Origin: Gaeumannomyces sp. JS-464
Lineage: Eukaryota; Ascomycota; Sordariomycetes; Magnaporthales; Magnaporthaceae
Assembly (NCBI GenBank): GCA_002197995.1
Contig: NGZR01000005.1
Location: 1,736,001-1,800,000, forward strand
DNA: 64,000 nucleotides
Reading direction: 5' to 3'
Shown: positions 23,814-51,189 of the stretch, piece by piece
Layout: each line of letters starts with the position of its first letter
Position numbering within the stretch: position 1 is the first letter of the stretch
The notes under the pieces: generated by a model
Databases searched by the model: none
What the model was told of the DNA's origin: nothing
The model's input: the letters and a program-made list of their open reading frames with translations, nothing else
Program-made: the position numbers and the translations under genes

Positions 23814-23925
23814 AAAAAGTTATTAGGGAAACCACAACTTACAATAGTTAAAAAGGGCAAACAAGTTTAAATTAAAATTAACCCCGGGCATTTGCTAATC
23901 GAAAAAGACGAAAAGAGCTATAAAA

Positions 23926-24002
23926 GGTTTAAGCCGCGAGGCAGTTTAGTAAACCGCCTAATCGGTTTCCTCGCGTTTAACACGCTTTAACTCTTTTATA
24001 GC
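23926..24002. repeat. Imperfect inverted repeat
   Basis: GAGCTATAAAAGG...CCGCGAGG on the left arm faces CCTCGCG...CTTTTATAGC on the right arm, with a loop around TTAGTAAACC. It lies between the chromodomain and the 3' LTR of Gypsy-1. It could be a transcript hairpin or a terminator-like structure. Confidence 0.45.
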
Positions 24003-24519
24003 GTTAATATTACGACGAATTGCACGCATTTTCTTTTCGAACCATACTTTTTTTTTGCTTTCGTAAGCGCTCGAATTTATTATCCAAAGCACGGCGTTCG
24101 TTATTTAAAACGCGACTTTTTTTTTTACCGCTTCGACTTCCGCTTTTATTTGTTAGTATTGCAAGCCGATAAAACGGAGCTGTTTAAAAAAAAAGGCTTA
24201 AAATGTTACAACCCGAGCGGTTTCGATCGAAACACTTTACATACCGCGACAAGTTTTAAAAAAAAGCCTCGCACTTTTTACGCTTTAAAACCTCGTAATA
24301 AAAAAGCAGGAAGGCATTTTAACAAAGAAAAAAACGATTTAAGCAAGCAAATCCTTACGTTAAAAGGTTTTTTTCGCAAAAAGACGTTTTCGCACCCGAC
24401 CAAACATTTTGTTAAAATAAAAAAGGGATGGGAAATGGTAAAAAAAGAAAGTACTTACTATTAACAAAAGGCGAAGCGATAAGTTTAAACCAAAAAAACT
24501 TAACTTAAAAAAAGAAACT

Positions 24520-24528
24520 TAATGTTAC
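24520..24528 (+). other. Left junction of the Rep dimer: TAATGTTAC
   Basis: Host Gypsy-1 sequence (purine tract GAAACTTAA plus LTR start TGTT) runs up to 24526; Rep-unit sequence begins AC-AGC at 24527. Uninterrupted copies of the same host sequence are at 57560-57568 (TAATGTTAC, minus) and 54241-54249 (TAATATTAC, minus). There the LTR continues ACAACCAG or ACGATTAA. The join is therefore inside TTAC. Confidence 0.75.
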
Positions 24529-26239
24529 AGCTTTAATGCGCGGTATCCTGGTATTCTTTTTATAATGGTGTAGGTTTTTGTGCGGGGTTTGCTAAGGTTA
24601 ATTGGTGTTTTACAAAAAAATGTTTTATTATTTTCGTAATTTGCAAAACATTATCGTGTAATAATTTAGTTTTCGCAATGGTTAAATAAAACCGCATTTA
24701 ATCGCAATTGCGCGATGCATATATCCTTGTATAAACTGTAATACAATTAAATGTAATCGGCATGTTGCAACTTTGCACAACCTTTTAGTTTGCTTTTTAA
24801 AGTCGGTCGTTTAAACATTCCCTTTTATTATTGCATTAATATCCTACGCGAAATTGTTATTTATTTATTTAATCGTAACCCACGCATTCGATTAAACGTG
24901 GATTTTCCCGTTATATTCGCGTTTTTATTATATCGAAAATGTTTTTCTCTTTTTAAAAGGTATATGTTTTTTATTTTAAATTGCAAAATTTCCCTTTTTT
25001 TTAAATGTATTTACGATTCCGTTACCAGCGAGCCTTTCGGTATCGTCGTTTTTACCTTAATCGCACTTTATACGGCATAGTCCGCTTTATAGCCGTCGTC
25101 CTCGATACCGCCGTCGGTACTATTAGGTGCTGCTTGCATTTTATTTATCCCGATTGTCCGACCCGCCGCACATAGCCTTTCCATCCACCTTCGCTTCGCT
25201 ATTCGCGGGAGCAGCAGCTTTTTTAACATTTACGGCACTTGTTAAACCATTCGACTTTTTCACTTTTACTATTAGCACGATGGTTTTTAAAACCCGAGGA
25301 AGCTACCGGCGCCACTTCCGCGGCGGTCGAAACTTTAGCCGCTTTGCATTAGCAGTAAAGCAAATGTCTAATATTAAACGCCATTTTATTAGTATTTTGG
25401 TTAATAGGAATTTAAAGCTAATTCGTTATAAAATGCATGCCGGTACATCCGATTCCGGCTTTTTCCTCCCCGGTATTAAGCTTTATCGCGGGGTTAATCG
25501 CGAACCCGACGTGGATACGGTGGTATAAAAGCATTAAATTTAATATATCCATTTATGTTTTACGGTTTTGCAGCATGCGTATTATTGCTTATCGCCTTTT
25601 TACAGATATTTTTGCCAATATGTGGCATTATGGTAATCCTTTTAACGATATGCGGAATGTCGCACTTTTTTTTAGCTAATGGTGGTAGTAGGTTTAATAA
25701 GCTGGATTTATTAAAAAACTAACAATCCCTATAATGCCCGTTAATATTTTGTTAAATGTAAAAACATTTTTTCCTTTTTTAACACTCGTTCGATTTTTTT
25801 TCCGGTTTATTAATTCGCAATATCGGTTACGCGTTTTATTAAATTAGGTTTAATATTTTAATATGCGAAATTCTTTTTAATTTCGTTTTATTTCGGTTTA
25901 AATTCTTTTAACTTAAAAAGTTAAGTATTTTGGTATAAAATCGAACGGTTTTTACCGCCGCATACTATTAAAATTTCGGTCGAACATCATTTTTTTATAT
26001 TATTTTATATTTTGTTTTTTTACAGTTAAAAGGCAATTAGTTATTACCGTTCGTTTTAATATAAATGTAAATAACGACTTTCGTTTTCTTAAAGCAAAGC
26101 TTTCTTTTCGGCCGAGTTTTTCGACTTTTAAAACGTTTACTATTATTTTAAATGCGAATTAGCGTTCGTTATTTGCATTGGAAATGCGAAATATTAGTTT
26201 TACTTTATATTAACGGCAGTTAAACAAATTAATTAATTA
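24527..26239 (-). pseudogene. Unit A second coding region, unknown product
   Basis: The minus-strand frame is broken but consistent between units A and B. It has a region near 25430-25480 reading KLNTGEEKAGIGCTG, then a low-complexity part, then a basic part with TGKST at 24911-24897 (also 28167-28153 in unit B). TGKST could be the end of a Walker A loop, as in the SF3 helicase half of Rep proteins, but the expected first glycine is not visible. No capsid-like frame was recognised on the plus strand. The product is unknown. Confidence 0.35.
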
Positions 26240-27540
26240 AAAAAATGATCGTTTTCCTCGTTTAATTGTTTTACAAACGCTTTTAACGCTTTCACTTTTA
26301 AATTTAGCATGCCGTATGGCTTTGCTTTTACGAATAATAGTTTATACATTTGCATAAATACACAATTTCCATTTAATTACGTGGCGTTTACCCTATTATA
26401 TTTACGTAAATCCTCGTTTGCCAAATAAATGCAAAGCAATTTTTAGCTTTCGAAATGTACCTTTTTAAAGTACTTATCGGTTACCGAAAAATTGCTTTAG
26501 CATTTTAGCATTTGCTTATAATGCTTAAGCATATCCTTATCGCTTAATAGCACGTCGTTAATTATTAAATATTTTTTAATGTTATCGAGCAGCGAGGCAT
26601 TCTAACACCCGCTTATATAGTTGTATAAGCCCAAGCTTTTAACCCATATTATTTTAAACAATTTTATTGCACCGTATAACACAGTGATTTAAGTCGTCCT
26701 ATCGATAAAAAATAAAATTAGCCACGTGTATAAAAGGTCCGGCGAAAAGCCTTTTAAAGGCCTTTTTAAAATTAAAAGTTTAAACCGTAAACCGAACTTA
26801 ATAAAACACTACTAACTAAGCCAAAACTAAGTCCTTACCTTTTGGATAGTCCCGCAGCGAAAAACGAGCGGAAGGGGAAGGTTATAACTTACCTTATTTT
26901 TCTTGCAAATTTTTTGCATTACTTTGTAATTTTTATAAAAAGGTCCTATACACCGTCCAATACCGGTTTAACATATTTTAAAACTGGTATGCGAAATGTA
27001 TTATCGGCGTAGGCTTTTACATTTAAGTAATGCAAAATCAATTCGCGAGGGGCCTTTTCGCGGAACTGTGAAAAAAATCCGTACGGTTGGATGTTTTTAC
27101 AGCCGCAAACCAAAAGTTTGCTTTAAGGTTTTTACGCAGCCCTTTTAGCTCGGTTATTATGCTGCCGACGTGTTTTAACTGGCTTTTCCGCTTATAAAAG
27201 TACTTTTAAGCAGCCAACGGCTGCCTAATCCTCCGATGTTTAAATAAAACCGTCCAATATCGAAATGTTTGGGATTTTTAATGTTTTCTTTTTATTTTAA
27301 TTGCCGATAACGTAATAATGTTAAGTGCCGTTCTTATAGCGTTTTCGAACGGCGTAATAATCGAAAAAGCTAAACTTTTTTTCTTTTAAATTAGGTTTTT
27401 AGGTTTAAAAGTGCATTTCGGGTACGTTAGGAAAACCGACTTTAATACGAATCGAAATGGTTATTGCTAACGCAAAAATCGACGACTTGCAAGTCGTTTA
27501 ATTATTCGTTTACTAGTAATATTAGTGTTTCGTTTTGCAT
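26240..27540 (-). pseudogene. Unit A Rep-like HUH endonuclease remnant
   Basis: The ATG is at 27540-27538. Motif I reads FLTYPKCTF (27433-27407), matching the FLTYP of geminivirus-type Reps. A GRS-like stretch HFDIGRFYLNI follows near 27270-27235. Motif II is HYYV (27320-27309); the second His of H-u-H is lost by a C-to-T change. Motif III is KYFYK (27205-27191), with Tyr and Lys in Y-x-x-K spacing. Spacing between motifs is about 30 and 35 residues. The rest, to about 26240, is a basic, stop-riddled region without a recognised domain. In the family this domain nicks TAATATT/AC and joins to the 5' phosphate through Tyr. Confidence 0.72.
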
Positions 27541-27806
27541 AAGTAAATTAATAAGTTAATTTATTAATAATGGAAATAATAAAAAATGTTAATTATTCGG
27601 CGAACTGTGCGTCGTATTAGTCGAAAATAGCGTTATTAACGAACAGTGATAGTAAAAAAGGGAAAGATAAAAAGGAAAAAAACGAAGCCCCGAAAATTTA
27701 AAAAAAGAAATTTATAATTATTGCTTGCTTTGCTACCTAAAACACTATTGGAAAATTAAAGCGCGGTATTTTATCCTTTTTATGCTTTTTAACACGCGTA
27801 AATACC

Positions 27807-27831
27807 AAAGCTGATTTAATATTACAGCCCT
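27807..27831 (+). promoter_or_regulatory. Rep origin-like stem-loop with TAATATTAC at the unit A/B junction
   Basis: TAATATTAC is at 27817-27825. The flanks AAAGCTG (27807-27813) and CAGCCCT (27825-27831) pair at five of seven positions; both mismatches are A opposite C, as G-to-A RIP would produce from a perfect stem. The loop would hold TAATATTA. In geminiviruses Rep nicks this nonanucleotide between T7 and A8 to start rolling-circle replication. Confidence 0.7.
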
Positions 27832-28972
27832 AATGCGCGGTGTTTTAGTGTTCTTTTCGTAGTGGTATAGGTCCTCGTACGGGGTTTGTCGGGGTTAATT
27901 AGTGCCTTGCAAGGTTTGGTTTTATTATTATTGTAATTTGCAAAACACTATTATGTAATAGTTTAGTTTTCGCAATGGCTAAGTAAGACCGCATCCAATC
28001 GCAATTGCGCGATTTGTACATCTTTATATGGGCTGCGACACAATTAAGTGTGATTTGCACGTCGCTAGGACATTACCCCTTATTATCGCGTTAATGTTTT
28101 ACGCGAAATGATTGTTTATTTAACGCGATCGCGATACGAGCACTCGATTTAACGTGGATTTTCCCGTTATTATCGCGTTTTTATTATAACGATTAAGTTT
28201 TTTTCTTTTTATAAAAAGGGATGCGTTACCTGCTTTAAGTTGCAAAACTTCCCTTTTTTTTAAATGTATTTACGATTCCGTTACCGGCGAGCCTTTCGGT
28301 ATCGTCGTTTTTACCCCAATCGCTTTTTATACAGCACAGTTCGCTTTACAGCCCGCCGTTTTTGATACCGCCGTCGGTACTATTAGGTGCTGCTTGCACT
28401 TTACTTGCCTCGACTGTCCGACCCGCCGCACATAGCCTTTTCGCCCTCCTTTACTTCGTTATTCCCGAAAGCAATAACCTTTTCACTTTCGGCATTCGTT
28501 AAACCATTCGAAGTTTTTCCTTTGCTATTAGCACGATGGTTTTTAGCACTCGAGGAGGCTACAAATGGCACTTCGGCCGCCGCTAAAACTTTTACCGCTT
28601 TGCGGCACAAATGAATTTGGTTACCCAGGTTAAAAAGCATATCCGTAAAATATTAATTAGCTTTAATAAATTTTTATCCGTTTATACGTTAAAAACGGGT
28701 AAAGATAATTCGGGGTTTTTCCTCCCGGCCACTAAATTTTGTCGTGGTTTTAACAAAAGCATTAATATGTCAATTGTCACTTTGCGTAAGGTTAAAGCTA
28801 AAATAATGCTTTGCGTTTTTCGGTTTTGTAATATGCGTGCTATTGCGTACTATCCCCCTATTACCATTAAGCAAAATTAATAGCATTTTTCTTTTGCCAT
28901 TTTTGGTGTAAAAAATTTACTTTTAATAGTGGTACGTATGGTGGGTTTAGTTTTATAAATAGGGGTAACTAT

Positions 28973-29177
28973 TGTCATGGCCGGCAAGAGGTGGAAAGGG
29001 CCCACTGGCGGGGCAAAGGGACCCCCACCTTTATCGGCACGATAAGGGAGGTGGGGCTTTTGCAAAGCTTTCCCTGCAAGCCTGCCCGCCCGGCCTCCGG
29101 CCTTTAACTCTCTCCTGTAAAAAATCCAACCTTACCATATATCGCAATCCAACCAGTCCCCCCTACTGTTCGCGATA
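28973..29177 (+). repeat. Gypsy-2 5' LTR
   Basis: Begins TGTCATGGCCGGC and ends GTTCGCGATA (CA end changed to TA). The partner LTR is at 48454-48655. Confidence 0.88.
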
Positions 29178-29824
29178 AGTGGTAGCAACTTTCTGCTTAT
29201 TGCAAAGTTACCAATCCCCGCCCTTTAAACTTATTTTCGGCTCGTTTGGAGATTTACGCACCCCCAGCGCGCTTTGTTTCGGCTCGGCGCGCGCGTTTCT
29301 CTATTAGGCTTATTTTCGGCTCGCTTGGCGCACGCTACCCTTCCCTGGCTTTTTAGTTACGGAATTGGCACCTTTGTAATTTCGGTAAGGCCGATTAAGA
29401 TTAAAGTAAAGTTGCTTAGGTTTCGCCCTGCCCGACTTCCCTTGCAGTCGCTTTAACCGTCGCGCTTGTTTTCGGCTCGCGCGCGATCGGAAAGTTTATC
29501 CTTTAATCTTTATCACTTCCTTTTAACTTACTTAACCTTCGAAAGCTTTTAAAACCCGCTAAAACCCTTTTACTTCCAGCGAATAGTTAAGCAGCGAGAG
29601 AAAACAAGTTAAAAAGTCCTTTAAAATCCTCCCGGAAGCAACATTTACGAACCTTTAAAGCTGTCCATTTTTGTAACGATAAGCCTTTTAAAAATTTGTA
29701 AAACCTGGCCTATCGACGAATTACCTTTACCACCCGCGGGTAAATATTGGGATCCCTAAAGCAGTAAAAGTATAAGCGAAAAAGCACAAAGCGGTAATGG
29801 CTAACGAGGTTATCCCGCCTTTTA
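29178..29824 (+). other. Gypsy-2 leader before the Copia-2 insertion
   Basis: This untranslated leader holds the primer-binding site and four copies of TTTCGGCTCG (near 29235, 29277, 29314 and 29470). No coding sequence is visible. AGGGT at 29825-29829 is the Copia-2 target duplication. Confidence 0.6.
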
Positions 29825-29829
29825 AGGGT

Positions 29830-29999
29830 TAATGGAGGTGCGCGACAACAGGCACCCGAAGTGATTGGTAATTGTTCCTTTTTTACTTTACTTAATCGCG
29901 GGCTAGGGCGCACGCAGGCTAAAATACTAAGGCCAATGCATAGGCTTAAAGCTGTAAGGCACCAATTGCCACCCACGTAACTCCAGGCCACCTTTAACA
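29830..29999 (-). repeat. Copia-2 3' LTR
   Basis: 170 bp. On the plus strand it runs TAATGGAGGTGCGCG...CACCTTTAACA and is followed by a C-rich tract, the complement of the polypurine tract. Confidence 0.9.
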
Positions 30000-32900
30000 C
30001 CCCCCCGTAGGCCATGCAACGGCTTTAATGGCATTACGAGCCCGCATTTACGTAGTAATCCTCCAAATCCGTAGTGTTTCCCTGGTTCTCTTGTAAGCCG
30101 TTTACTGCGGCATTTGCTGCATTCCCAGCTGAATAACAAACCTCGCTTATCCCTTCGCCGTTAAGCCTTTCGTAAAACCGTCCGCCTTTATGTTGGCCGT
30201 GCCAACGAGCTTAAAGGTGAAAAGTTAACGCTTTACAGCATCGATTACCCACTTATAACGGAGGTCGATTATGCGGGTGCGGGTTAATTCCAACGGGTTT
30301 AACACCGTCGCTTGGGCGTTGGCGCTATCCGTATGCACCACGAAAGTTTTTCGCTAAAGGTATCCAATTTCTTTTAAAATGCCTTTAATCCAAAGCAAGG
30401 CCCGGCCCGTTGGCAGGAGGTTAACGAACTCCGCTTCCGTCGTCGACGTCGTTATAAAAGTCTGCTTTTTTGATTGCCAGTAAACAGGACCACCCGTTAG
30501 CATGACGATTACGCCGCTTGTAAATGCCCTCGTACGGAGGCAGTTGGCGAACGAGGCGTTTCCATAAGCTTTTAGGCCCATCGTTTCGGCGCTATAAGTA
30601 GGCCCACCAAAGGTAAGCGCGAGCCCCTTAGTGCCAATAATATAGCGCCAAAGGTGTTTTAGCAGTGCCAAATGCTCGTTGCCGGGATTGGCGTTAACCT
30701 TTTGCAACCTCCTCACGGTATACGTGATATTAGGGCGAGTAATGCTAGCGAGGTAGCTAATACTCGCTATTTCCGACTGGTAGCGCAAAACTTCCTAGTG
30801 CGGGAAAAGGTCCCAAGTGATCGGCATTATAAAGCCAAAGGGCCAGGGCGTTTTCACTGCTTTAAGGTCCTCCCGTCCGTATTTGGTAATAATTTTGTTA
30901 ATATAGTCGCGTTAATAAAGGCTTACAGTCCTCCGCTGGCGATTTTTTACAACCTGCATGCCGAAAAACGTTTTTGCGTTCCCAGGGCGGTTATTTCGAA
31001 CCGGCTACCTACCTCGGTAGCGGTGGCTTTAATTTCCGTAACCGTACGGGCGGCAATTTGGAAGTCGTCCACGTAAAGCAATAGCATGGCGCCCGTTTCC
31101 TTTTTGCGGTAAAGGCAAACGTTTTGGTAAATCGGCTTAAAGCCAAATGCCTCGAGCTCCGGAGTAATCGTTTAATACCATTATAAAAGCGATTTACGAA
31201 GGCCGTAAAGTGCTTTTTTTAAACGGCAATAATAGCCTTTCTGCCCAACCGGAATGCTTTAAGGTTGCTGTACGTATACCATAACGTTATTAAGTACGAT
31301 AGCGCCGAAATAGGCAGTTACGAAGTCGAATTGGCGGCATTTAAAGTCGTTAACGGCTATAAGCACAAAAAACACTTTCGTAAATGCTGCATAAGCGATT
31401 GCCGCGTACGTTGCAGCTTTGTCCTCGCCCGGAATATCGTCGTAATTGCCGCAAACGACCTAACGCGTTTTAATTTTTTTAAAAGCACCGTTAAGCGTTA
31501 GCTTAAGCACGTATACCCATTTGCCCGGCAGTGCTTTAGCACCCGGGGGCAATTTCTCTAGCATTTACGTGCCCTTTTCGAGTAACGTGTTAATTTGCTT
31601 TTGCATTGCTGGCTTATAATATCGCTCGTACTCGGCCTTGTGCTTTACCGCGTCGTAGTAATAGGCCGGAATATACGGTGTTCCCGGCACCGTGGCGACG
31701 CCGAAGCGCGAGGTTGGGGATTTTAAAGCCGCCGATCTTTTAAGGCAAAACGATATCGTTATCCGGGTACGTAATGTTAACGAGTGCAAAACCCGTTTTT
31801 CGGGCAGTTTTTCGGCAGCCTCGTATTCGTATTAAGGCTGTGGAAGCTTTCGTCGTTTCGGCGCTTTTAGGGTTACCCGGATCCTTTTCCGCCACTTTTT
31901 TAATATTTTTGCTCGAAGCGAGCCGTTGTAAATGCTTTACGGGCTCCCTTTTTTTGCAGGTTTTTGGTGTTAGGACTTCGTAATGCTTAAAAGTCGTTAG
32001 GCGTTTTTTTAATTGCCGGTCACTCGGCGGGGGCGGCGGCCGCTTTTTGCAGGTCCTTTTTTTGGGCGCTGCGGGCACCGTAACCGCCTCGTTGCCGAGC
32101 TCGGAAGTTCTTTCGGATGTTAGCATGCCCGGGCCGGCGGGCTTTTTAGGCTTTTTAGGCTTTGCAGCGGCAAGCTCCTCGTCCTCCGCTCCGGTTTCCC
32201 CGGTTTTTTCCGTAAGCGATGAATTATTATCACTTCCGGGGCCGGCAATATCGCTAGTTGCACCGGTGTTACCATCGTTATTATCGGTGGAATTAGTAGT
32301 TGGGCCAATATTGTAAACCCAAGTGCCTATTGTGAAGTAAAGGTTTTTGACAACGGTTTTATTAACCTTGTTAATGGTAATCGCCTTTTTAACAAAGTTA
32401 TAGGGCGATTTCCGGCGTTTACCAGCGCCTTCGTTAATCCGTGCGTTACGGTAAACGGAAGACCTTGTTAATATCGTCCGGCTTAACTAGCAGGATCTCG
32501 TTATGGAGGCTTTCCCAGCCTATAAGCCGACCTTTCGTTGCCCTGGGGGCCATTTTGTCGGCTTTGGCCTGTTTGCCGTTTTTAATTAGCACCTAGGCGA
32601 CCGCGCCCCAGGTGCGGAGGGTACGGATTGGTGGTTGGTAATACTTTTCGTTAAGGCTAATTGCTTTTGCCCACGCTTCGTGCGGGCTTTCCTTACTGCC
32701 AAAAGCTGTTTTTGGAGTGTAGTTTAGCACCCTCCTCGTTGTTTGCAGGGCATATACCCAGTACTTTTTGTGCAGGCCGTTAGTATTAATCCCGGTGCGA
32801 GCCGCGTTAAGTATAGTACGGTTGGCACGCTTAACGATGCTGTTCATTTCCGGGCATCGCGCCGGGCTAATTTCGCAGGCTTTGCTTCGAGCAGTATAGT

Positions 32901-33436
32901 AGGCTTTTAGCTTTTCCGGGTTAAACTCCGTGCTACCGTCCGTATGGATTGCCTGTATTTTAATACCTAACTGGAGTTTAATATAGTTAATCTAGTTACA
33001 AACTTTCGTAAAAATTTCCGTGCTGGCTTTGCTAATTGCAAAAATCACCTAGCTAAAAGTAGTTGCTTTATTAATAATATGAACGGCGTAATTGTATCCG
33101 TCGTATAAAGTAGGCGAAATGGTTAATATATCCATATAAATACGGCCCAAAAGGCGGGTAGTGCGGTGGAAGTGACGATTGCCGATGATTTGGGTCGCCT
33201 TGCTTTCCAAACAGCCGTTACAGGTATGCTTTAATGCTTCGAAGTAGCTGACTTTAATGCCTGCAGCGCGGCAGGCCGTTATCACCGCCTTTTTATTGGC
33301 ATGCATTAAGCGCCGATGCATTATCACGTAAGGCACCGGGCGCCTTGTCGTGGTCGGTGCGTTAGCCTTCGTCGGTCGGTCTTTTCCGTTAGGTGCGTTG
33401 CCCAGGGCCACAAGGCCCGGGGGCGCGCTTGCGGGC
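30000..33436 (-). pseudogene. Copia-2 pol, 3' part: integrase, RT, RNase H
   Basis: The integrase zinc domain (HRRLMHANKKAVITACRAAG, TCNGC; about 33330-33220) leads to the core (YMDILTISPTLYDGYNYAVH). NSIVKRANRTILNAARTGIN is near 32847. The linker is alanine/proline/lysine-rich (about 32126-31740). The RT YVDD is at 31075-31064. RNase H has KKQTFITTSTTEAEF (about 30470-30420). Several frames are interrupted by indels and stops. Confidence 0.85.
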
Positions 33437-33584
33437 ACGTTAACGTTGGAGTGAGTGAGTGAGTGAGTAATTTAACGTCAGTAAGTCGGGATCTACCAGT
33501 CCCTGCCTCCCAAGGGGCATATGACGTGCTAGCGCTACTAAGCTAAACATTAGGCTACATGTTGCTATCCGGCGGCTAGCAGAA

Positions 33585-36500
33585 TTAACCCGAAGGCACA
33601 CGAAGGTCGGGCCGCGTTCCAGCGCTCCTTGTTAGTGAGCGGGCAATCGGCGGTAGGGCGTATATATATACGCCAGGGCGTTGTAAAGCGCTGCGGGTGG
33701 TAGTAGTGCGTTCGGCCGGCGAGTATGCCGGTAAAGGGTGGGGCCGGGTTTTAGGCTGGAAGGTCCTCGGGACCCCCAGGGCCCGGCCGGAGGTGCGGGG
33801 GACCAACGAGCCTACTGTTAGTCCTGGTGGTACAAAGGAAAAAGGTAAAAGGTGTAGGAGAACAAGGAAAAGGATGTATGCGGGCTTTTTAGGCCCTGTT
33901 GTTATCGTCCAGCGATAGTGTAATAATTGGTAGCTTCGGCGAACGAAGCAAAAAGGAAAGGCTTTTGAAGTAGCCGTTTCCAATATCCGGGCCTGTCGGA
34001 AGCCGGGGAGGGGTCCGCTATAGGCCATTTATTTTCTGCCGTTTTAGCCAACCTGCAAAATACAGGGTGGGAAGGGGATTTGTTTCTTCCGCAGCGGCAC
34101 GGGTTATCGTCTTCGTGCTGGAACTTTCGGTGGTACCAGTCGAAATCCCCGTGACCGGTGCGTGCGGCTATTAGCCGTTGCAGTACCCTCCGGTGCAGCT
34201 GCAACGCTTCGGGCGTATGTTGTGGTGCCGGCGGGAGGCCTATAGCCTTATACCGATCCGGAAAGTTGTCCTTAAACCATGCGTTCCGGGCGTCCCGGGC
34301 CGTTTTCCGGGCTAAAGCCTTTACTCCGGCCACCGTTGGTTTAAAATGTTGGGGTATTGGCAGGGCCGATCCCAACTTTGCTTCGGCGTTGCCTTTCGTT
34401 TCCGGGGATTCCCATATGGCCCGGGGACCAGCGTACGTATACCTGGTGTTTATCCATAAGGCAATGGATTTTTTAAAGGCCCTTGTGAACTATCAGGGGC
34501 CGTGCTTAAACAGCCGTTGGCCGCCGAGGTGTTATCGAGGCACAAGTGGAAAGTGCAATTGCGGAAGCTCCAAACGGCTTTACGGAGGCCCATCCGGGCC
34601 CCTTCCGCCTCGCCGTCGAATACTTCCGCGGGATGCGCCAGCCGGCCGTGCCCGGAAAGTTTGCGTTGGCCGGCTTGGTATATTACCCAGCCGTATCCAA
34701 CTGCTCCGTTCTGCTTTGGACCCGTCGCTATATATTATAACGTCGGTGGGTGGGAGGGTGCAAAGCCACGCCGTAAATGCTTTAGCGGCTGCTTGCTTTT
34801 CTTATATGGCCACCGTAAGCCCCGTATATTTATAAGAGGTAGGCCGGGCGGGTGCAAGCCGGAAAAAGTCCGGCCGTCCTTTGCAAGGAGGTTGCAAGCC
34901 TGCCGGGTAAGCCTGCCCTAGGCCCTCGGGCGTTAAAGCCGGCTTGGCCGCTGCGGCCAGGGTGTTCTTCCGGAACCGTATTTATACGGGCCGCAAAACG
35001 GAGGCGGGCTTGTTCCAAAAGCGCCTGGGCGTTGGGATGCCGGATTCGTAATGCAATGCGTTTATCGGTGTGGTTTTCCAAGCTGGGACCACTGCTTAAG
35101 GGACGCGGTTAAGCTTTATCGACCCGATCGATTAAATGGCCTTGGCGGATAATTTGCTGTTGTGCCGGCTTGTACGGGTGTGGTTTAGTTTTACCCCTAT
35201 ACCATACCTCGGCCCCGTATAAAGCCGTAGGATTATAACCGTTGTGACGGCTTTGTAAACCGAATGTGCCGGTATCCCCCCTATCGAATTCGTAAGCCTT
35301 CGGAGGTGGTTGGCAACGCTTTGGGCTTTTGCAGCCCTGTTTTCCACGTGGGCTTTAAAATTAAGCCTTTGGTCGAAAAGGACCCCTAACCACCGTAAAG
35401 CTTGTAGCTTGTTGTATGGTAAGCCCTTCCGCCGTAACCGCTAGGGTTGTGGGATTTCTCCGTTTGGAAAAATGCATAAGCTCGCACTTCCCCGGGTCGA
35501 AAGCAACCTTATTAGCCTCCCAACGTAGGATTTCCGTAACCGTAGCCCCTGCTTTACGGGAGCACTTCCGGAGTGCTACCCGTTACGCAAATGCCTATAT
35601 CGTCCGCGTATCCGTACTAATCGCTTTTGCTTTGGGTAGGATTTCGGCCATATAAAGCATAAATAGGACCGGTAACGCCGGTAACCCTTGGGGTAGCCCG
35701 CAGTCCGGGGAAAAAGGGGGTGCCGTGGCGTCCTCCAAACGCACTTTAACCACCCTGTTTCCTGCAAAAGATGATACCATCGTACTAACGTTGGATCCCA
35801 GCCTTGGTTTAAAAGCCTTTAAAGGAGCCTCCGGCGAAGTACGGCGTCGAAAGCCCCTTGTACATCCATGGTAACGAGGGCGGCCGTTTTATGCTTTTGG
35901 AAGGCCCGTTCCACCTCGTGGGCCACGCATGCCGTTAAATCGATGGCGGCCTTTTTCGGGGTAGCCCCGGCGTGTTGCGGGGCTATAAGCCCGTGTTGTA
36001 ATGCGAGGGATGCCATCCGCGAAGCCACCAGCCGTTCCAGCCCTTTCCCTAAGCACGGGAGTAAAGCTATCGGGCGGTAGGATTTTGGGTCCGTTAAATC
36101 CGTTTTATTCGGCTTTTTAGCATAACCACTTCCGCTGTGCGGAAAGGGGCTGGGTGGTGTGCCCGGCCCTAAGCAAGCCTCGAAAAAGGCCCTAACGTAT
36201 TCCCCTATTGCCGGCCACGCCGCTGTAAGTAGCTTAACCGTTAGGGAATCGACGCCCGGGGCCGTGTTTGCCGTGCCAACGGTGCACTTCCGGCATTCCT
36301 TTAAAAGGACGTGGGGTCCCACGGGAGTTGTGCGGTTTTTTAGTAGCCCTTTGCTGTAACGGGTCCTCCTGTAAGTCGTCCTCCGCCGTAAACCTACGGA
36401 GGATTTTGCGGCCTAATGTTCCGCTTTATCCCTGGGCTATTATAACCTCCCCGTTAATATTTAACGGGGGAAGCCGTATAGCGGGTGTAAGTTTATGCCA

Positions 36501-39560: not shown

Positions 39561-39653
39561 GGGTGTTAAGGATTTGTATGCAATTTGGCAGTGTGCACTA
39601 ACAGCGCAATGCCAAAAATTGGTGAATTCGAGGAAGGTTGACGTTAACGTTGG

Positions 39654-41060: not shown

Positions 41061-41259
41061 TTATTGTTGTTATTTTGTTATGGTTGCTGATCGGCGCCGA
41101 ACGCGGCCTTGTTGATTGTCGTTTAACGGTTTTTTAACTGCTGCGCTTCGCCCGTAATCCACGGCGGGAGAACGCAAGCAACGAGAAACAACTCGTGCAC
41201 CGTTAATCTCTCCTAATTAGGCAGAGATATCGTTAACGGCGGCGCGAGGGCTTATAACC

Positions 41260-41429
41260 TGATGGAGGTGCGCGATAACAGGCACCCGAAGTGATTGGTA
41301 ATTGTTCCTTTTCTACTTTACTTAATCGCGGGCTAAGGCGCACGCAGGCCAAAATACTAGGGCCAATGCATAGGCCTAAAGCTGTGGGGCACCAGTTGCC
41401 ACCCACGTGACTCCAGGCCACTTTTGACA
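41260..41429 (-). repeat. Copia-2 5' LTR
   Basis: 170 bp with intact termini (TGATGGAGGTG...CACTTTTGACA on the plus strand). It gives the reference ends for the family. Confidence 0.9.
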
Positions 41430-41434
41430 AGGGT

Positions 41435-44000
41435 AAAACACCCGATACGGGCTAATAAAACACCGGTTAACAAAGCGCGAACTTAAACCCTCCCGAATTA
41501 CCGGTCTTCCTTCCGGTATCCCAATATACCGCAAGCCGGCTTTTAGGCCCTATATAGGAATATTAGGCCCACGTTAATAACGAAGATAAGGAAGGAGGAG
41601 TTTCGCTGGATAAAACGTACTTCGACCTCGGCGGCCGCTTAAGCCGCTCGATGCGTAGTCGACAAAAGGAAAGTTACACTGTTAGCTTCGATAAAAACGA
41701 CGACCCTCGCTTAAGCCAGTTTAGCAAAAGCAAAGCCTTTGCAAAGTGGTTCGAGCGTCGTTAAAACCGCATATATAACAGCTTATCGCAATAAATAACG
41801 GGCATAGAAAGTCGCTTAAAGGCGGTGCTTATTAAAACCCTCGATAAGCTATCCATTAAAATACAAAGGAACTTTAACATTATCGATAAAAACTTTGGAA
41901 TTTTGTTCGAAAACCAAAAATAGCTCGCTATCCGCGTCGATAACGCGCGCAAAAACACTTTAAACCTATAAGCCCAAATGGAAACCCATTTTAACAAAGA
42001 CGAAGATCTTAGCCGACGTATTTTTTTCAAATTTAGCACGGACGAAAAACGTCGCAAAACCAGCGCTCGCGCCTCCCTAAGACCGTTATTATTACGACGG
42101 GCTAGTACGCAAAGCAGCTAAGCTGCCCAAAATAGCACGGCTAACCCCGAGGTAGGCCGCAGTAAAAGCCGTCCAATTAAAATTACCGACGATAATTTAT
42201 TTAGCGAGTTCGATATTAACGCGAAACGTTTTTACCAGCTTATTGGATACCGAGTAATTAAGCCCCCCGCACATAAGCCGCGTTAACACCGTAAAACGGA
42301 TAGTAAGCTAATCCAAAAGTACGACGGAGGCATTAAAACTGTTGCCTTTTAGCCGGAGTTTTATGGAGCCGATTAAACCTTCGGTTAGGACTTAAGCTAG
42401 TAATAGCAGCCTTAGCTTAGCTTTATACCTTTTAATACCGGAGTTACCACTTTTGCTTAAAAAGCTACCAATAAGTATTACGAAATAACCTACGGCCAGT
42501 TTCGCCCCGGCTCGGTTCGCGTTGGCACATTTGGCTTAGGTATAGCGCTTGCCGCATTCCCGAGCTTTGGACGTAATTGTTAATAGGAGCTTAGCTAAGC
42601 TTACCCTTAATAACTATCCCAATTCGAGCAGTAATAAGGTAATATAAGTTACTTTACCCAACTTATTTCGGCCTAGCAATAGCTAACGCAAAACTCGTGC
42701 GCTTTTAACCTCGCCGCCCATTAATAGCGAAGCTTTAACAACTTTTAACCCGTCGAATAACTAATGTTTAACATTAAAAACGGTCCTCGTTTTAAGCGAA
42801 AAAACGTCGGCATTTTTAAACCCGACCATAAAAACCCTAAGGATTTTGGCACCGTTACCGACGGAAAAAACATTATTTTTACGGATAGCTTTTTTTCGAA
42901 ATACGACTAATAAGCTTTTTAATAAACCCCGTATATGCTATATTTAATAAAAGTTAACTTAAGGACATATTCCTTACGTTGCTAAAAGGTAAAGCCCTTA
43001 TTTAGTGAAATAGTTAAATTCCCTTTTACGTTTAACTAGATTTTTACGGTTAAGGTTTTTTCGGCATAATTACCGCTATTAAGCAACGCTTTCCTCCTAA
43101 CCGCATAAAAGTTACCAAAAAGTTCTTCGAAGGCACTATTACCATTAAAAACGTCGCAATTAACCCCGACGCCCTTATAAACTATGTTATTAATAAGCTT
43201 AAGCACGCTCGCATTATAGGTTTTTGCACCGAAAATGGTTAAAACTAGTTTGCGGCTATGGCCTAAATTTGGTCCTTACTTAATAACGACGTTAAGGTTT
43301 ACTTACGTTAACCCTCCTTTAATAAGTACATCGGAAATTACCTTTTCGAAGTCGAAAATATTAAGCCTATGCTTTTTAGCGTTATAGCTTAACGCTACCC
43401 GCATATTAAACCGGGCTATAACGATTCCAATTCCGGCTCGAACGCTAATTACAAAAAAAAGTCCCGCAAAAAGGATAAGCATTTTAAGCGCGACAAATAT
43501 CGCGATAAAAATAAGTCCAAAGGCAAATATAACGGCAAATATAAGCCGCTTAAGTACGAAGCTCGTAATAAGGACCGCGAATACAAAAGCCGTAATAAGG
43601 ATTGTAATAAAAGCCGCGATAAAAACCGCGATTATAAGGACAAAAAGGATTTTAAAAAGTTTTACAATAAAAAGAAGGATAATAAAGTTAACCTAGTTAA
43701 GTTTAACTTAAACGACGATTTATTTAACGAGGAAAAGCAATCCTTTTCCTTTAGTACGAATAACTTCGATTTTATTTATAACGTTTTCGAAAACACGCTA
43801 ATTACTAATTGCAAACGTTATAGCGAAAACTTCCGGTTCCGCAATAAGCTATTTAAACACTTAAAGAATTACGAAGCTAAACCTCCTTAGGAATTTAACT
43901 CCGTTAACTTTATTATAAAAAACGTGGTTAAGGAAAGCGAGCCTAAAAAGGTTGCCTTATCGCATTTGGAGGTTATACTTATTAAAAAATCATGGTCCGC
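41435..44000 (+). pseudogene. Gypsy-2 gag region with a long basic tract
   Basis: The gag-like frame has few stops for this region. At about 43440-43690 it becomes a strongly charged tract of K, R and D with N/Y (RDKYRDKNKSKGKYN, RNKDREYKSRNKD). This could serve nucleic-acid binding in place of a zinc knuckle, which I did not find. A DLFNEEKQSFSFSTNNFDF stretch follows. The N-terminal half is unrecognised. Confidence 0.6.
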
Positions 44001-47000
44001 GAAACCCTTAACGGATTAGATATACCCATTTGCACTAATATAGGCTCGGAACGTAACCTCGTCGACAAAGCCTAACTTAAGGAATTTTTCTTTAACGCCG
44101 TAATTACTAAGGTAAATAAAGGAGTTCGACCTAATATTAAAGGCTAGGATTTCGAGCGACCTATAAAAGCTAAAAACTACGCTACCTTTTCCTTTTTTGC
44201 TAAAAGCGTTAAAAATAACGGCTTCCCGGGTATTACAACCAAAACGGTTAAGGCGTGGATCGTTAATAAGCTGGATGTAAGCTATTTGCTAAGCACTTCC
44301 TAGCTTAAACCTCGCCGTGCCCAAATCGATTTCGGCACTAACCTAATGCACTTCCTTAACGACGGCTTTGCTATCCCCTTTACCGTTGTCCGCAAAGGTA
44401 AGCCCGTTTTAAAGAAGGTTGTTAACAAAAAAGCCTTTACTTTAGCCTTTGGAAAAACTGCAGCGATCCCCGTTAAATACGTAGCCCTCTTTAAAGGTCG
44501 CCCCTTTTTAATGGCCGGCATCCACCTTTTGGCAATTAATTTTATCGTCGATTATAAAACTCTTTAAGTTTGCTTTATGCATAACATTACGAGCAAAACA
44601 ATTATCGTGCTTTGCAAAACTAAATTCGCGATAATTTAGGAAAGTTTAAACTAAATCCGGAACAAAGTTAATTACGAGCAAGCTAAGCGGCTCCTTAGCA
44701 AAGCCATTTGCGTTTAAAACTTAACGATAAAGGCCGAAAAGGCCTTACTAATGGGAAAAAACCAAAACCTTATTCTTTTAACGGGCCCGGGTAATGCCGA
44801 AACGTCGCTAAACCTAAAGTTTTCCCTTAATAACGAGGCTAGTAAGCATTACTAAAGGGCGATTAAGTTGCGCACGATATTGCCATTAACGGAACGTTAC
44901 CGACTAAGGACGACGCGCTACCTAAAAAGTAAAAAACAATGCTCGATAACCCCGAGCCATTGCCTAAAGTCCCCGAAAAAAAGTTAACTTTCGGCATTAA
45001 GCCCTCGAACGAAACCTTTTACATTACCTTAATTAACGGGATTTACATTTACAACGGCGAAACGCTGGAGCAAACTTAAAAAATAAGGGAAATTTGTAAA
45101 AAGTTTTAAATTTGGGAGGATAATAATAAGCAAATCGAAATCCCCAAAAACAAAATAATGCGCATCCTTTTCGTCAACGGATACGAAAAGTATTTAAGCT
45201 TTCGCTACCGCATATACCCCGTATTAAAAAAGGAAAGGGACGTTATTAACGAAACTTACGATAAGCTTTACGAATAGGGCCGCATAAACTATATAAAAAA
45301 AGCAGCCTAATTTGCCTTCCCGTGTTTTATCGTTTAAAAACGCGTGCACGGCAAAAATAAAGCGAGGGTTATCGTCGACTTAAAACCTTTTAATAAGGCC
45401 ATTATCCCTAACGCTTACCTTTTACCTTTGCAATAAAACGTGGTCGATTTAGTTCGAGGCAAGCTTTACATTACCGTCGTAAACGCCACCTCGTTTTTTT
45501 TTCAATTCCTAATTCATCCTAAGGATAAAAATAAGCTGGTAATCGTTAGCTACCAAAGATTGGAACGTATAAACGTGGCGATAATAGGCTTCCGCAATTT
45601 ACCGGCTTACGTACAAAGATTTATGAACGGTTTTTTGCGCCTTTATAGCAAATATTGCAAAGCTTTTATCGACGATATTATCGTTTTTAGCGACACTTTT
45701 AAAAACCACGTCCGGCATTTGGAAACCATTTTTAGCTTATTTTAAAATAAAAACATTGCCTTATCCCCCGGTAAATCTTTTATAAGCTACTTTAACGTCG
45801 AGCTTTTAGGATTTTACGTCGATTTCTTCGGAAAAACTAACATTAAAAACCGCATCCAAAGCTTCCGAAACTGGGAATTACCTACTAACCTATAAAACTT
45901 CGAAATTTTTATCGAAGCTTCCAAATAGCTCCGCTGCATAATCCTTTACTACGGACGCTTTATTAAACCCTTTTAACTTCGAAAGATAGCTTTGCTAGCA
46001 AAAGGCCGTAAAAAAGGACGAATCGTCCCCAATAACCACGGTAAGCGAGCGGCTTATTATCGCTCGGCGCATTTTAAAAGCACCGAAGCCGAGGTTTAAT
46101 CTTTTAAAGCGGTTAAAACGATGCTTTGCACCAAAATTAGGCTTTACCACGCCGACCTAAAAAAGCAAATCATTTTGCAAATCGACGGCAGCCTTAAGCG
46201 TGGCTTTAAAGTTATAGCTTTCCACTTTAAAAACGTTTACGCTTGGGACCGCAAATCCAAAACCATCCCGGCATATGCTATCGAGCCAATTATGTTTATC
46301 TTTCGGTGCTTTTATAAGGAGGAGCTTAATTACGGCCTTTTAAAGCTTAAAGTCGCATACCTCGTTTAAGCTTGCAAAACCTTCCGTACTACATTGCATT
46401 TAAGCAATAAAAAAATCCTCGTTTTTACGGACCACGAGTTAATTGCGGGCATTGTTAATCGGACCACTTTGCTAACGTCCTCCACCGAGCGTATTAACCG
46501 ACGGCTAATTAACGCGTTAATTTACCTTTCCGAATATAACCTTAAAGTATTACATATACCCGGCAAAATAAACCTTGTTTTAAATGCTTTATCCCGCTTA
46601 CCCACGGCTACCGACGACGAGGACCGCTAAAAAACAAACGCTCCGATCTTCGATTTAATGTATAACCACGTTTTAATAGTCGCTAAGGCCCGAATAGCCG
46701 AAACAATTCGCTAACGGTTCGCAAAGGGTTACATCGAAAATTTAATGTACCGCAAAATTATGCTTAACTTTGCTACTCCTTAAAGGTCGAAATGCACGAT
46801 TAAAAGTAACGAAGGCGTTGCTAATGCTTCCAAAGTCGGGCATTTTTTTCGAGTGGCCGACTACCTTTTTTATTTACGGGATAACGACGGCCACGAGCGC
46901 TTTATAATTTTAAAACCTTTAATCGCTAACTACCTGCGAAAAGTGCACGATAATAAGCACCATTTCGGCCGACTCCGAATGTTTAACGCTTTTAAAAACG

Positions 47001-48338
47001 TGCATTTCCGAGCTAAAAAACGCCAAGTCGAGCAGTATATTAGCAAATGCTACGAGTGCGGCATAAACCGACAAAATAATCGGCTCCCTATTGGAACCCT
47101 TTAACTTATCCAAGCCCCTTTTAAGCCTATAAGTATAATTATTATGGACTTCGTAATAGCACTCCTTTTAATTCCTTCGAAGGGTACGCTTTAGACCCAA
47201 CGGAACTTTAACTTTTATAATGCGCTACTAATAGTTACTTGCAAAACGTCCAAACGTACGATAATTATCCCTGGCTACGACGAATATACGGCGCAAATAT
47301 GGGGTAAACAACTCGGCCGTTAGCTACTTTTAACCGACTGGTTTTGCCCTAAGGTAATTATTTTCGACAAGGACCCCAAATTCACCTCCGCCTTTTGGAA
47401 TAGTTTGTGGCGCACTTTTAGGATTCGCCTCCAAATGACGGCCGCTTACCATTCGCAGGCTAACGGGCAGTTCGAACGCAAAAACCAAACAGTTAAGCTA
47501 GCTATTCGTTATTACTTAGCCACGATAAACGACCCTTAGGTTAACGTTATCCCCTTTTGCAGTGGAATTTAAACAATGCTATTATAACGGCGCTTAACTG
47601 CAACCCCTACGAGTATTTGTTTGGGTTTAAAATACCAAAACCTTTAAAGCTTACAACCTCCGCACGAATTCCCCAAAAAGTTGCAAAACTTCGCTTTATG
47701 CGTAAGCACCTTCGCAAGGACGCTTTATTTGCGATAAACGTCGCTGCCGCCGAGCAAAAGCGCATTTACAACTCTAAGCACCGCTACGAGGAGTTTAACG
47801 TCGGCGACCAAGTTTGGCTTAATATGGGCAAAGCGTATAAAACTAAAGGTAAGCATTTCGTTAATAAGGAAAAGCCTAAGCGGCAAAGCCCTTATACCAT
47901 TATCCGCAAAGTTTCCCCTTTAGCTTACGAGCTCGATTTCTTTAGCACCTTTACCAAAATACACCCGGTTATTAGCATTTAGCACTTTACTCGCTACGAT
48001 TGCAACGACGATCTTTTCCAACGCGTACCTCCGCTTTCGGGCCCTATCGAGTACGATAACGATAAGGAGATCGACCTTAACGCCCATTCTCGGAAAAAGG
48101 CGACATTTTCGAGGTGGATAAGGTTTTTAACCACGAAGGCACCAAGCTAAAGTTTGAAGTTATCCGCACCAAATACTTGGTGCGCTGGAAGGGTTACGGC
48201 CTTAAGGGAAACATTTGGAAACCTTTGGAAAAGCTTAGTAACGCGGCTAAGGCCGTTAAAAGTACGAGGATCGCTAAGCCGACGCCCGAACCCTCGAAAG
48301 TAATAGGGCTAAGGTTTAGGCTTAGGCAAAGCCTTTAA
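44001..48338 (+). pseudogene. Gypsy-2 pol remnant: protease, RT, RNase H, integrase, chromodomain
   Basis: RT lies at 45350-45745 with the catalytic FIDD at 45665-45676 (AFIDDIIVFSDTF). RNase H is near 46120-46630 and ends in VLNALSRLP. The integrase zinc module is 46940-47075 (KHHFGRL...KCYECGINRQ) and the core follows. The C-terminal part is 47557-47980, and a chromodomain is at 48114-48260 (YLVRWKGYGLKGNIWKPLEKL). The open pieces are in adjacent frames, with RIP-type stops between them. The domain order is Ty3/gypsy, distinct from Gypsy-1 in sequence. Confidence 0.85.
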
Positions 48339-48453
48339 GACGCTCCGCGCGCAAGGCAGGCAAGGATTAAAAACCTTATTAATTGTATTTACCCTTTTTA
48401 TGTACAGTAGTTATCTCCCTAAGGATAGGGAGTTTTTTTTATGCGCCGGCACT

Positions 48454-48655
48454 TGTTATGGCCGGCAGGAGGTGGAAGGGGCCCACTGGCGGGGCAGGGG
48501 GACCCCACCCTTATCGGCACGATAAGGGAAGTGGGGCTTTGCAAGCTTTCTTTGCAGGCCTGCCCGCCCGGCCTTCGGCCTTTAACTTTCTCTTGTAAAG
48601 AATTTAACCTTACCATATATCGCAATTTAACCAGTCCCCTTTATTGTTCGCGATA
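48454..48655 (+). repeat. Gypsy-2 3' LTR
   Basis: TGTTATGGCCGGC...GTTCGCGATA, followed by ACTAT (48656-48660). It carries small indels relative to the 5' LTR. Confidence 0.88.
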
Positions 48656-49169
48656 ACTATCCAATTAGTACTTGGTTTACCGAAATTAGGGAATTGTTTT
48701 TTTTTCCGATATTCGCCTTTAGTTTTTTCGTTTTATCGACGCCAAAAAGCGGTTACGTGTTTTGCTTAATTAGGTTTAACATTTTACTGTAACCGACAGT
48801 TTTTAATTTCGGCTTATTAATTTTTGGGTTAATTTGGTTCGTTAAGTAACGTATTAAAGTGAGAACGCTAATAGTTTATATCGCTTTGGTTAAAAAGCGG
48901 ACGCGAAACGGTTTAATTTATATTTCCTTATTATGTTTTATATTCCTTTTTTTTCCATTGAAAAATGGCATATTGTTTTTATTTCGTTTATAAAAATAAA
49001 CGAAAATTCGAAAAAGTTTACGCCGGCGAGTTTTTCTCGTCCTGTTACGTTTGCTTTTAAAACGTTTACTATTATTTTAAGTGCGAATAAGCGGTTATTG
49101 CTTGCTTTAGAAGTTCGGGAAATTAGTTTTACTTTGTATTAGCGGCAGTTAAAAGAATAAATTAAAAAA

Positions 49170-50475
49170 AGCTATCGTTTTCCTCGTTTAATTGTTTTAC
49201 AAACGCTTTTAATGCCTCCACTTTTAAATTTGGCGTGCTATATGGCTTTGCTTCGATAAATAATAGTTTATACATTTGCATAAACACACAATTCCCGTTT
49301 AGTTATATGGAATTCACCCCGTTATATCCTCGTAAATCCTTATTAGCTAAGTAAATGCAAAGCAATTTTTAACTTTTAAAATGTACTTTTTTAAGGTATT
49401 TGTCGGTTACCGAAAAGTTGTTTTAGCATTTTAGCATTTATTTGTAATGCTTAAGCATATTTTTATCGTTTAATAGCATATCGTCGATTACTAAGTATTT
49501 TTTAATGCTATCGAATAGCGAGGCATTTTAACACCCGCTTATATAGTTATATAAGTTTAAGCTTTTAGCTTACATTGTTTTAAACAGTTTTATTACACCG
49601 TATACACACAGTAATTTGTGTCGTTTTATCGATAAAATATAACGTTAGCTACGTGTATAAAAGGTTTGGCAAGGGGCCCCCCGATGGCCTTTTTAAAGTG
49701 GGGGTTTAAGCTGTAAACCGGACTTAACAAAACACTATAAAAAATGGCTAAAAACTAGGTCTTTACCTTTTAAAAGGTCCTATAGCGAAAAACGAGCGGA
49801 GGGGGGGGTTATAGCGTACTTTGTTTTTTTTCGCAAGTTTTTTTACATCCACTTTGTGATTTTTATAAAGAAATCTTATATACCGTTTAACACCGGTCCA
49901 ATATACGTTAAAACTGGTATGCGGAATGTGTTATCGGCGTAAACTTTTAAATTTAAATAATGCAAAATTAATTCGCGGGGGGCCTTTTCGCGGAACCGGG
50001 AAAAAAAATCCGTGCGATCGGATGTTTTTACCGCCGCAAACCAAAAGTTTGCTTTAAGGTTTTTGCGCAGCCCTTTTAGCTCGGTTATTATACCGCTAAC
50101 GTGTTTTAACTAGCCTTTCCGCTTGTAAAAGTATTTTTAAGCAGCTAACGGCTGCCTAATCCGCCCGATATTCGGATAAAACCGTTTAATATCGAAGTGT
50201 TTGGGATTTTTAATGTTTTTCTTTTTATTTTAATTGCCGATAACGTGGTAATGTGGGGTACCGTTTTTATAGCGTTTTCGGACGGCGTAATAATTGAAAA
50301 AGCTAAACTTTTTTATCTTTTAAATTAGCTCGTCGGGTTTAAAAGTGCACTTCGAGTACGTTAGGAAAACCGATTTTAATGCGAATCGGAATGGTATATT
50401 GCCGACGCAAAAATCGACGACTTGCAAATCGTTTAACTATTAGCTTGCTGGTAATATTGGTGTTTCGTTTTGCAT
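49170..50475 (-). pseudogene. Unit B Rep-like HUH endonuclease remnant
   Basis: ATG at 50475-50473. Motif I is FLTYSKCTF (50367-50341). Motif II HYHV is intact at 50253-50242, preceded by KNGTP. Motif III contains YFYK (50133 to 50122 on the minus strand). Two His plus Y-x-x-K make a complete HUH catalytic set in this copy, unlike unit A, though stops elsewhere inactivate it. The nonanucleotide lies 279 bp upstream at 50754-50762. Confidence 0.72.
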
Positions 50476-50753
50476 AAACGATTTTATGGGTTAATTTATT
50501 AATAATAAAAATAATAAAGAAAATGTTAGTTGTTCGGCGAACTGTGCGTCGTATTAGTTAAAAATGGCGTTTTTAACAAATAACGATTGTGAAAGTGGGA
50601 AAAAAAAGGGGGAAAAAACGAAGCCCTGAAAATTTGGGAAAGGGAATTTATAGTTGTTGCTTGCTTTGCTGCCTAAAACATTGTTGGAAAATTAAAGCGC
50701 GGTGTTTTGCCCTTTTTATGCTTTTTTAACCCGCGCGAATACTAAAGCTAATT

Positions 50754-50762
50754 TAATATTAC
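50754..50762 (+). other. Right junction of the Rep dimer: TAATATTAC
   Basis: Element sequence ends ...AATTTAATATT at 50760. From 50761 the sequence is Gypsy-1 LTR (ACAACCAGCATGCAAG), matching the minus-strand LTR at 57561 and below (ACAACCAGTATGCAAA). Confidence 0.75.
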
Positions 50763-51140: not shown

Positions 51141-51189
51141 CCCCCCCCCCCCTCGAAGTGCTTTACTTTAAAAGCAAACTTTTAATTGT

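Follow-up and report, generated by a model that had tools for sequence, protein, structure and literature searches.

Among described systems, the nearest published relative in kind found for the element family treated here is the geminivirus-like transposon of Tuber melanosporum, reported to have 37-bp terminal inverted repeats (TIRs) and two transposase open reading frames (ORFs) (Liu et al. 2011, main text, PMC3198968). Replitrons, from green algae and plants, are described as having no TIRs and target-site duplications (TSDs) of 2-8 bp (Craig 2023, via PMC10741241); Helitrons, in the same account, insert between A and T, with neither TIR nor TSD. The present family was met in a 64,000-nt stretch of the 53-Mb genome of Gaeumannomyces sp. 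JS-464 (C30:1736001-1800000, ‘the window’), as a head-to-tail pair of ~3.3-kb units, each with the remnant of a geminivirus-type Rep gene and each bounded by a nine-base sequence, the nonamer. Both the direct pair and its nick-site boundaries had been proposed in a first-pass annotation made from the letters of the window; both stand. Self-BLAST puts unit A at 24520..27825, nonamer to nonamer, and unit B at 27817..28972 and 48661..50762, with nonamers on the plus strand at 24520..24528 (TAATGTTAC), 27817..27825 and 50754..50762 (both TAATATTAC); these ends agree with those of copies elsewhere in the genome.

The larger finding appears to be one of position, namely precise insertion into pre-existing TAATRTTAC-like sites. 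The reading preferred here, held with good confidence, is that the family is an extinct ~3.3-kb rolling-circle transposon, or else a virus that behaved in this way, and that it targeted its own origin sequence; it would carry a geminivirus-type Rep, with a Y1 HUH nuclease and a helicase-like region, and a stem-loop origin with TAATATTAC in the loop.

The family is dispersed over ~25 loci (end coordinates paired by eye). The left 600 and right 600 bases of unit B served as terminal queries and were matched genome-wide: the left query gave 24 matches, 22 of them beginning at query base 1, and the right query 28, of which 25 end at base 599 or 600. Because these queries themselves stop at the nonamer, the ends were judged by the flanks beyond it; the flanks are mostly dissimilar, and the similar ones belong to a small number of repeat groups. 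All 18 outer left ends read TAATNTTA[C/T]: ten have TAATATTAC, four TAATGTTAC, two TAATTTTAC and one each TAATATTAT and TAATGTTAT. The 21 outer right ends comprise 17 with TAATATTAC, two with TAATATTAT and one each with TAACATTAC and TAATAGTAG, these last four being one or two bases off. The tallies set aside tandem-internal left ends (L009, L026, L027 and L029), the right ends L037, L038, L040 and L041, and matches that fall short of the end (L020 and L031; L050, L051 and L059). Units with both ends number 13 and measure 3,283-3,583 bp, seven of them 3,290-3,309 bp. Single copies bearing the same ends are present at many loci, and head-to-tail arrays at four: the window, C31:1707677-1714279, C29:1724072-1738389 and C1 around 10809688. 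Read together, the ends place the opening of the copies at the nonamer. Two left ends (L030, query bases 1-243; L032, 1-176) have no right nonamer within ~1.7 kb and are truncated or non-autonomous copies. At C33:494174-498829, two right ends in the same orientation lie 4.1 kb apart with no recognised left end.

What the chromosome looked like before insertion can be read at four different sites. Unoccupied paralogous sites have one nonamer and filled sites have the element between two; besides point differences, filled and empty members of a pair differ by the element plus one nonamer. Wherever an empty paralogue was found, the copy appears to sit in a pre-existing TAATRTTAC-like site, and insertion to have left a nonamer at both ends, with no other change detected beyond point differences. 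In the window, the array lies between flank X (22501..24519, plus strand), the inner part of a target long terminal repeat (LTR) retrotransposon up to its LTR junction, and flank Y (50763..51190, plus), the 3' LTR of that target as far as matches run. X and Y are contiguous at 57980-57494 on the minus strand, an unoccupied copy of the site with a single TAATGTTAC (57551..57559, minus) between them. A 20-base pattern of this LTR junction has 253 places in the genome with at most two mismatches (reversed control, 4); four such empties were read out, besides the one in the window. The first bases of Y occur 585 times (control, 0); among the matches listed, they frequently pair up on one strand at a spacing of ~7.0 kb, and the downstream partner is often a place of the 20-base pattern. 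As Y is LTR-like and so paired, the window site is read as the boundary of inner region and 3' LTR of an abundant retrotransposon. The idea that X ends at the native nonamer of another element was dropped, since the empty sites show X and Y contiguous. Global alignments of 60 flanking bases are noisy, several LTR-junction scores hardly exceeding the shuffled or cross control; the LTR-junction site therefore rests on the BLAST matches and the 20-base pattern.

The other sites, Q, R and Z, repeat this arrangement. Site Q is filled in L022/L054 and empty in L069, L070 and L071 (TAATATTAC) and L074 (CAATATTAC); an unoccupied paralogue reading CAATATTAC lies in the window at 22495..22503 (plus). 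Site R is filled in L013/L043 and empty in L072 and L073 (TAGTATTAC). Site Z is filled in L023/L046 and L025/L058, and empty in L065 and L067 (TAATATTAC) and L066 (TAATACTAT); in a further place, L068, the anchor was not seen. A query made of the joined Z flanks had its junction spanned in all 40 scored places (the best 40 of 404 candidates), 38 of which run from query base 1 or 2 to 224-229. L052 sits in Z on the strand opposite to the other two insertions; both orientations are possible there because GTAATATTAC can be read as the nonamer from either strand. For L012, too, the left flank has an unoccupied paralogue in the window, TAATATTAC at 24005..24013 (plus), matched up to the junction (BLAST 70% over 236 columns, E 3e-21; 42 of 59 end bases); with those at 22495 and 57551, it is one of the TAATRTTAC-like sites of the target retrotransposon inside the window. 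That retrotransposon (about 250 junctions, LTR starts ~7 kb apart) bears several such sites and is a frequent target. TAATRTTAC itself occurs 1,936 times in the genome against 506 for the control, palindromic sites being counted on both strands, and the retrotransposon's share of insertions may simply mirror its share of these sites.

The fifth base of the nonamer bears on where the strands were exchanged. It is G in three of the four fetched LTR-junction empties (L062-L064; L061 has A), in the window empty, and in 17 of 27 exact pattern matches (among the matches listed). All three insertions with flank X have G at the left, the window array included; in the three right ends adjoining Y this base is A. 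Among outer ends generally, base 5 is other than A in 7 of 18 on the left versus 0 of 21 on the right (Fisher P 0.002). Repeat-induced point mutation (RIP) changes G into A; it does not run in the reverse direction, nor can it turn A into T. Given that direction, the variable base of the left nonamer appears to follow the target and that of the right nonamer the element, and the left TAATGTTAC of the window array is read as target-derived. The element's own bases start after the left nonamer. With the target's G kept on the left and the element's A on the right, strand exchange would fall inside or next to the nonamer. The known geminivirus cut is TAATATT/AC; it falls in the exchange interval, and nicking and joining by Rep there would give the pattern seen.

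The Rep gene runs on the minus strand, ~330 to ~1,600 nt from the element's right end. Its remnants have broken frames and occupy 26225..27494 in unit A, with catalytic and helicase-like parts, and 49162..50431 in unit B, both minus and both with an extent extrapolated from pieces in other copies. A genome-wide scan with PF00799 (Gemini_AL1) gave 12 matches, with unit B (50152-50391, minus; 39.4 bits, E 2.3e-8, two stops inside) among them and unit A not; eleven have stops, and the remaining one covers 63 of 113 positions. The prokaryote set scanned with this profile contained no relatives, which, like the RIP-like indices described below, fits a fungal genome. Stop-free pieces match it at 5.1e-7 (L047), 1.3e-6 (L054) and 6.3e-5 (L048, just under the cut-off), and a Rep piece matches solved Rep nuclease domains in the PDB at E 4.7e-8. 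Motif I reads FLTYPKC in A (27433) and FLTYSKC in B (50367), both minus and ~390 nt from the nonamer; HYHV is present in B only (50253); Y-x-x-K is read as WKYLHK in the L048 piece. With motifs I-III accounted for in this way, the gene is a Rep of the geminivirus or CRESS (circular Rep-encoding single-stranded DNA) type, with an HUH catalytic domain. The first-pass annotation was right about a minus-strand geminivirus-type Rep and about the intact HYHV of unit B; the Y-x-x-K that it reported is read in the L048 copy and not in A or B, and profile recognition held for the catalytic domain of B and failed for A and for the helicase pieces.

The remainder of Rep is harder to place. Its central part reaches E 0.09-0.1 against PF08283, below the cut-off and, in one scan, below two unrelated chance families. 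Helicase-like blocks, KYLVIDD and LANEDPR, were picked out by eye in C-terminal pieces. The strict Walker A pattern has no match on the Rep frame. L043, L054 and L060 have a P-loop-like block (GAIKLFK in L043 and L060, NVIKLFK in L054) in which Phe takes the place of the second Gly of the GxxxxGK motif; this is not a RIP change and would mark either an unusual helicase or a dead one. A codon-position test of transversion sites in 18 copies (L045, L046, L052, L055, L057, L058 and L060 left out) gave 12, 4 and 1 by phase with L054 as reference (chi2 11.4, weak) and 4, 5 and 8 with L034 (chi2 1.5); most stretches show nothing. Rep N-terminal pieces had 558 pattern matches in IMG/VR, none of them confirmed. 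Central pieces had 1,406 candidates in a collection of 5.8 billion proteins, none at E 1e-3, in a comparison limited to proteins of 0.55-1.75 times the query length, which places full-length Reps outside its reach.

A second gene, on the plus strand, is an orphan. Several copies have stop-free pieces of it in common; in unit A its remnant lies at 25280..25720, with a third-position transversion excess and an extrapolated end, and in unit B at the equivalent position, 28536..28972. The codon-position test supports its frame over element bases 840-1080, where the three phases have 23, 13 and 40 transversion sites (chi2 14.7; of 13 overlapping stretches this one scored best; L009, L012, L024, L025, L030 and L032 left out). 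The product begins with an Arg-rich stretch, which would suit a capsid or DNA-binding protein. Assignment as a capsid or to another known function was tried and given up: three plus-strand ORF pieces have no Pfam match, the protein collection gave 1,134 candidates with none at E 1e-3, and the best PDB match has E 0.86. The gene is damaged, and may be a divergent capsid gene.

A geminivirus Rep cuts and rejoins DNA at its own origin. In the transposition cycle that the preferred reading supposes, Rep would nick the element at TAATATT/AC to give a single-stranded DNA (ssDNA) or circular intermediate; Rep would then nick or attack a chromosomal occurrence of that sequence, the end nonamers of resident copies among them; the strands would be joined; and the host would copy the second strand. 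Attack on a resident copy would produce tandem arrays. A copy with a nonamer on either side, or a tandem whose units have an entire origin between them, could release new unit circles; if so, every insertion, including an insertion into an insertion, would rebuild a launch site for them. Release of unit circles from redundant geminivirus copies is reported in a title among the references of PMC3187698.

The arrays allow this to be weighed against another origin. At the tandem junctions L038, L040 and L041 the DNA folds into a stem and a 13-nt loop containing the nonamer position (L040 reads TAAAATTAC); the window junction, L037, has its nonamer between two origin stem arms and no such stem-loop in its minimum-energy fold. 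TAATATTAC or the nonamer position is in an origin loop at three of the four junctions. A single insertion keeps one stem arm at each end, and its arms would therefore resemble imperfect TIRs; the only inverted repeats noticed at element ends are these two arms. The first-pass annotation took the pair in the window for one integrated rolling-circle concatemer, as head-to-tail units with one nonamer between them might suggest. The divergence of the units tells against it. Transversions were counted, since RIP makes only transitions, with tandem-internal ends kept and L030, L032, L057 and L060 omitted; the median over all pairs is 7.8% on the left and 5.3% on the right. The left ends of A and B differ at 84/954 positions, and the nearest left-end relatives elsewhere are L014 for A (31/992) and L011 for B (67/942); the right ends, at 17/988, are mutually nearest, and a recombinant history of A and B is possible on that account. 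The C31 pair differs at 125/967 on the left and 54/982 on the right; the C29 pair is close on the left (21/994) and not on the right (52/983); the C1 right ends differ at 61/988. Each array has at least one end about as dissimilar as a random pair of copies. Because the units differ by transversions, successive insertions are favoured, and a single concatemer is most improbable even with the similar A/B right ends and C29 left ends on its side. All four arrays would be explained if one element after another had inserted into the terminal nonamer of a copy already in place; integration of mosaic multimers could, less probably, lie behind them too. The expected end-to-end alignment of A with B was obtained for both ends (self-BLAST: left 74.9% over 833 columns, right 83.5% over 1,715) and broke down in the interior, with three short 70-73% matches only. 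Left and right parts of copies have different nearest relatives, a mosaic structure as in recombining ssDNA viruses.

A second perspective takes the copies as fossils of infection: a fungal virus like a geminivirus or genomovirus whose Rep, in repeated infections, joined its genome to chromosomal nonamers. The layout is virus-like, Rep and a second gene lying on opposite strands with the origin between; the orphan product starts with an Arg-rich stretch, as many capsid proteins do; and the mosaic halves recall recombining viruses. Against it, neither Pfam nor the PDB nor the protein collection yielded a relative for the orphan protein, the Rep N-terminal pieces brought no confirmed relative from IMG/VR, and the integration step would be identical in this case. 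Such an endogenised CRESS virus is a tentative possibility; the analysis leans somewhat towards a separate class of eukaryotic transposon: the transposon would be an entire geminivirus-type replicon, and one nine-base sequence would serve as origin, both ends and chromosomal target. A transposon class was among the options first offered for the pair, and the dispersed copies and insertion into pre-existing sites agree with it. Two further schemes dispense with Rep at the joining step, and both seem very unlikely. Host repair could have captured circular episomes at breaks through 9-bp microhomology, target and element having about nine bases in common; microhomology joining should open the circle anywhere, whereas all 12 PF00799 places, found without terminal queries, fall in loci that those queries also found, with at least one nonamer end. 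The terminal queries do favour copies opened at the origin, and eleven copies without one recognised end leave room for a few opened elsewhere. Alternatively, another recombinase, Crypton-like (a tyrosine recombinase) or encoded by the orphan, could integrate a circle across a 9-bp crossover; a crossover sequence would likewise leave the target repeated at each end and allow either orientation in a palindromic site. Yet no recombinase domain was found in the twelve stop-free pieces scanned, which are part of the element, and the sequence crossed over is where the element's own Rep is expected to nick.

Several observations weigh against insertion by Rep at its own origin sequence. No working copy, circle or transposition event was seen, and neither Pfam nor the PDB recognises the helicase pieces. 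Seven right ends stand without a recognised partner on the left, and four left ends without one on the right. Insertions with both flanks matched to an empty paralogue number only six, spread over four sites (the window array, L016/L060, L022/L054, L013/L043, L023/L046 and L025/L058); for L016/L060, the right flank depends on its first bases, compared by eye, and a BLAST match further in, and the 60-base comparison does not exceed its cross control in two of the four empties. In the Fisher test the loci count as independent, although a single repeat site supplies three of the five G cases; the exchange is confined only to the interval from base 5 to about base 11. Three copies have flanks from unlike sites: L018/L049 (left flank the LTR junction, right flank Z +343), L021/L034 (right flank the LTR, left flank not placed) and L024/L057 (left flank Q, right flank R), whose joined flanks are contiguous in 0 of 40 scored places. 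Ectopic recombination among copies could account for all three, and a 5' LTR target may explain the flanks of L021/L034.

The surroundings of the array have a history of their own. A retrotransposon nest of ~19.7 kb (28973..48655) splits unit B; its outer LTRs, of ~205 bp (28973-29178 and 48453-48655), lie between the copies of a 5-bp duplication, ACTAT, the left one at 28968-28972. RIP-like dinucleotide indices are found in the units and flanks and not in window positions 1-12000 (TA/AT 1.18-1.44 versus 0.93); GC content goes from ~57% at 1-12000, without RIP signal, to ~29% at 19000-24519, with RIP-like indices. Direct repeats at 9260-12072 and 33864-37127 are 87-96% alike, the second containing an ORF (35819-36322) judged by eye to be reverse transcriptase-like.

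The ~25 loci amount to a natural experiment, with chromosomal insertion at a nick sequence, empty sites, both orientations and tandem growth, and they make testable whether CRESS viruses and rolling-circle transposons interconvert, and by what chemistry. Integration of ssDNA viruses is described as non-homologous, with adeno-associated virus excepted (PMC3187698); insertion into the origin nonamer would be a new way for virus-type machinery to move in chromosomes. Among the matches listed in the open-access literature, which leaves most subscription literature outside, no title reports nonamer-targeted insertion. If the reading is true, the family would directly bridge CRESS viruses and HUH transposons in evolution.

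Comparison with the known systems points both ways along that bridge. Geminiviridae and Genomoviridae have the same catalytic Rep domain, a nonamer in a stem-loop and a genome size similar to that of the element; they differ in that the present family has no recognisable capsid gene and inserts site-specifically in chromosomes. Endogenous geminiviral sequences of plants are likewise Rep copies in a nuclear genome, some of them tandem, for which the account in PMC7758297 gives no origin-bounded ends or choice of target site. The Tuber element, compared by description only, also has a geminivirus-type Rep, a dispersed multi-copy family in a fungus and no obvious target duplication; unlike the case here, the main text of its report has no occurrence of ‘TAATATTAC’, ‘nonanucleotide’ or ‘tandem’ (PMC3198968), and no transposase domain was found by Pfam in the stop-free pieces of our element that were scanned. 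Replitrons, also known by description, combine an HUH nuclease with short direct terminal repeats (5-11 bp) in 0.9-4 kb (PMC10741241). The 9-bp nonamer at both ends and the HUH domain match this; here, by contrast, the terminal repeat is the geminivirus nonamer and is also the target, inverted stem arms stand at the ends, and no separate TSD was seen. Helitrons are eukaryotic rolling-circle transposons too; the present family inserts instead inside a TAATNTTAC-like site, and the Pfam matches of the pieces scanned include no Helitron domain. As Helitrons have been kept apart from the CRESS viruses (Kazlauskas et al.), a transposon with a CRESS Rep and this target logic would fill a gap. The family seems to work like an HUH rolling-circle transposon and to be built like a geminivirus-type replicon.

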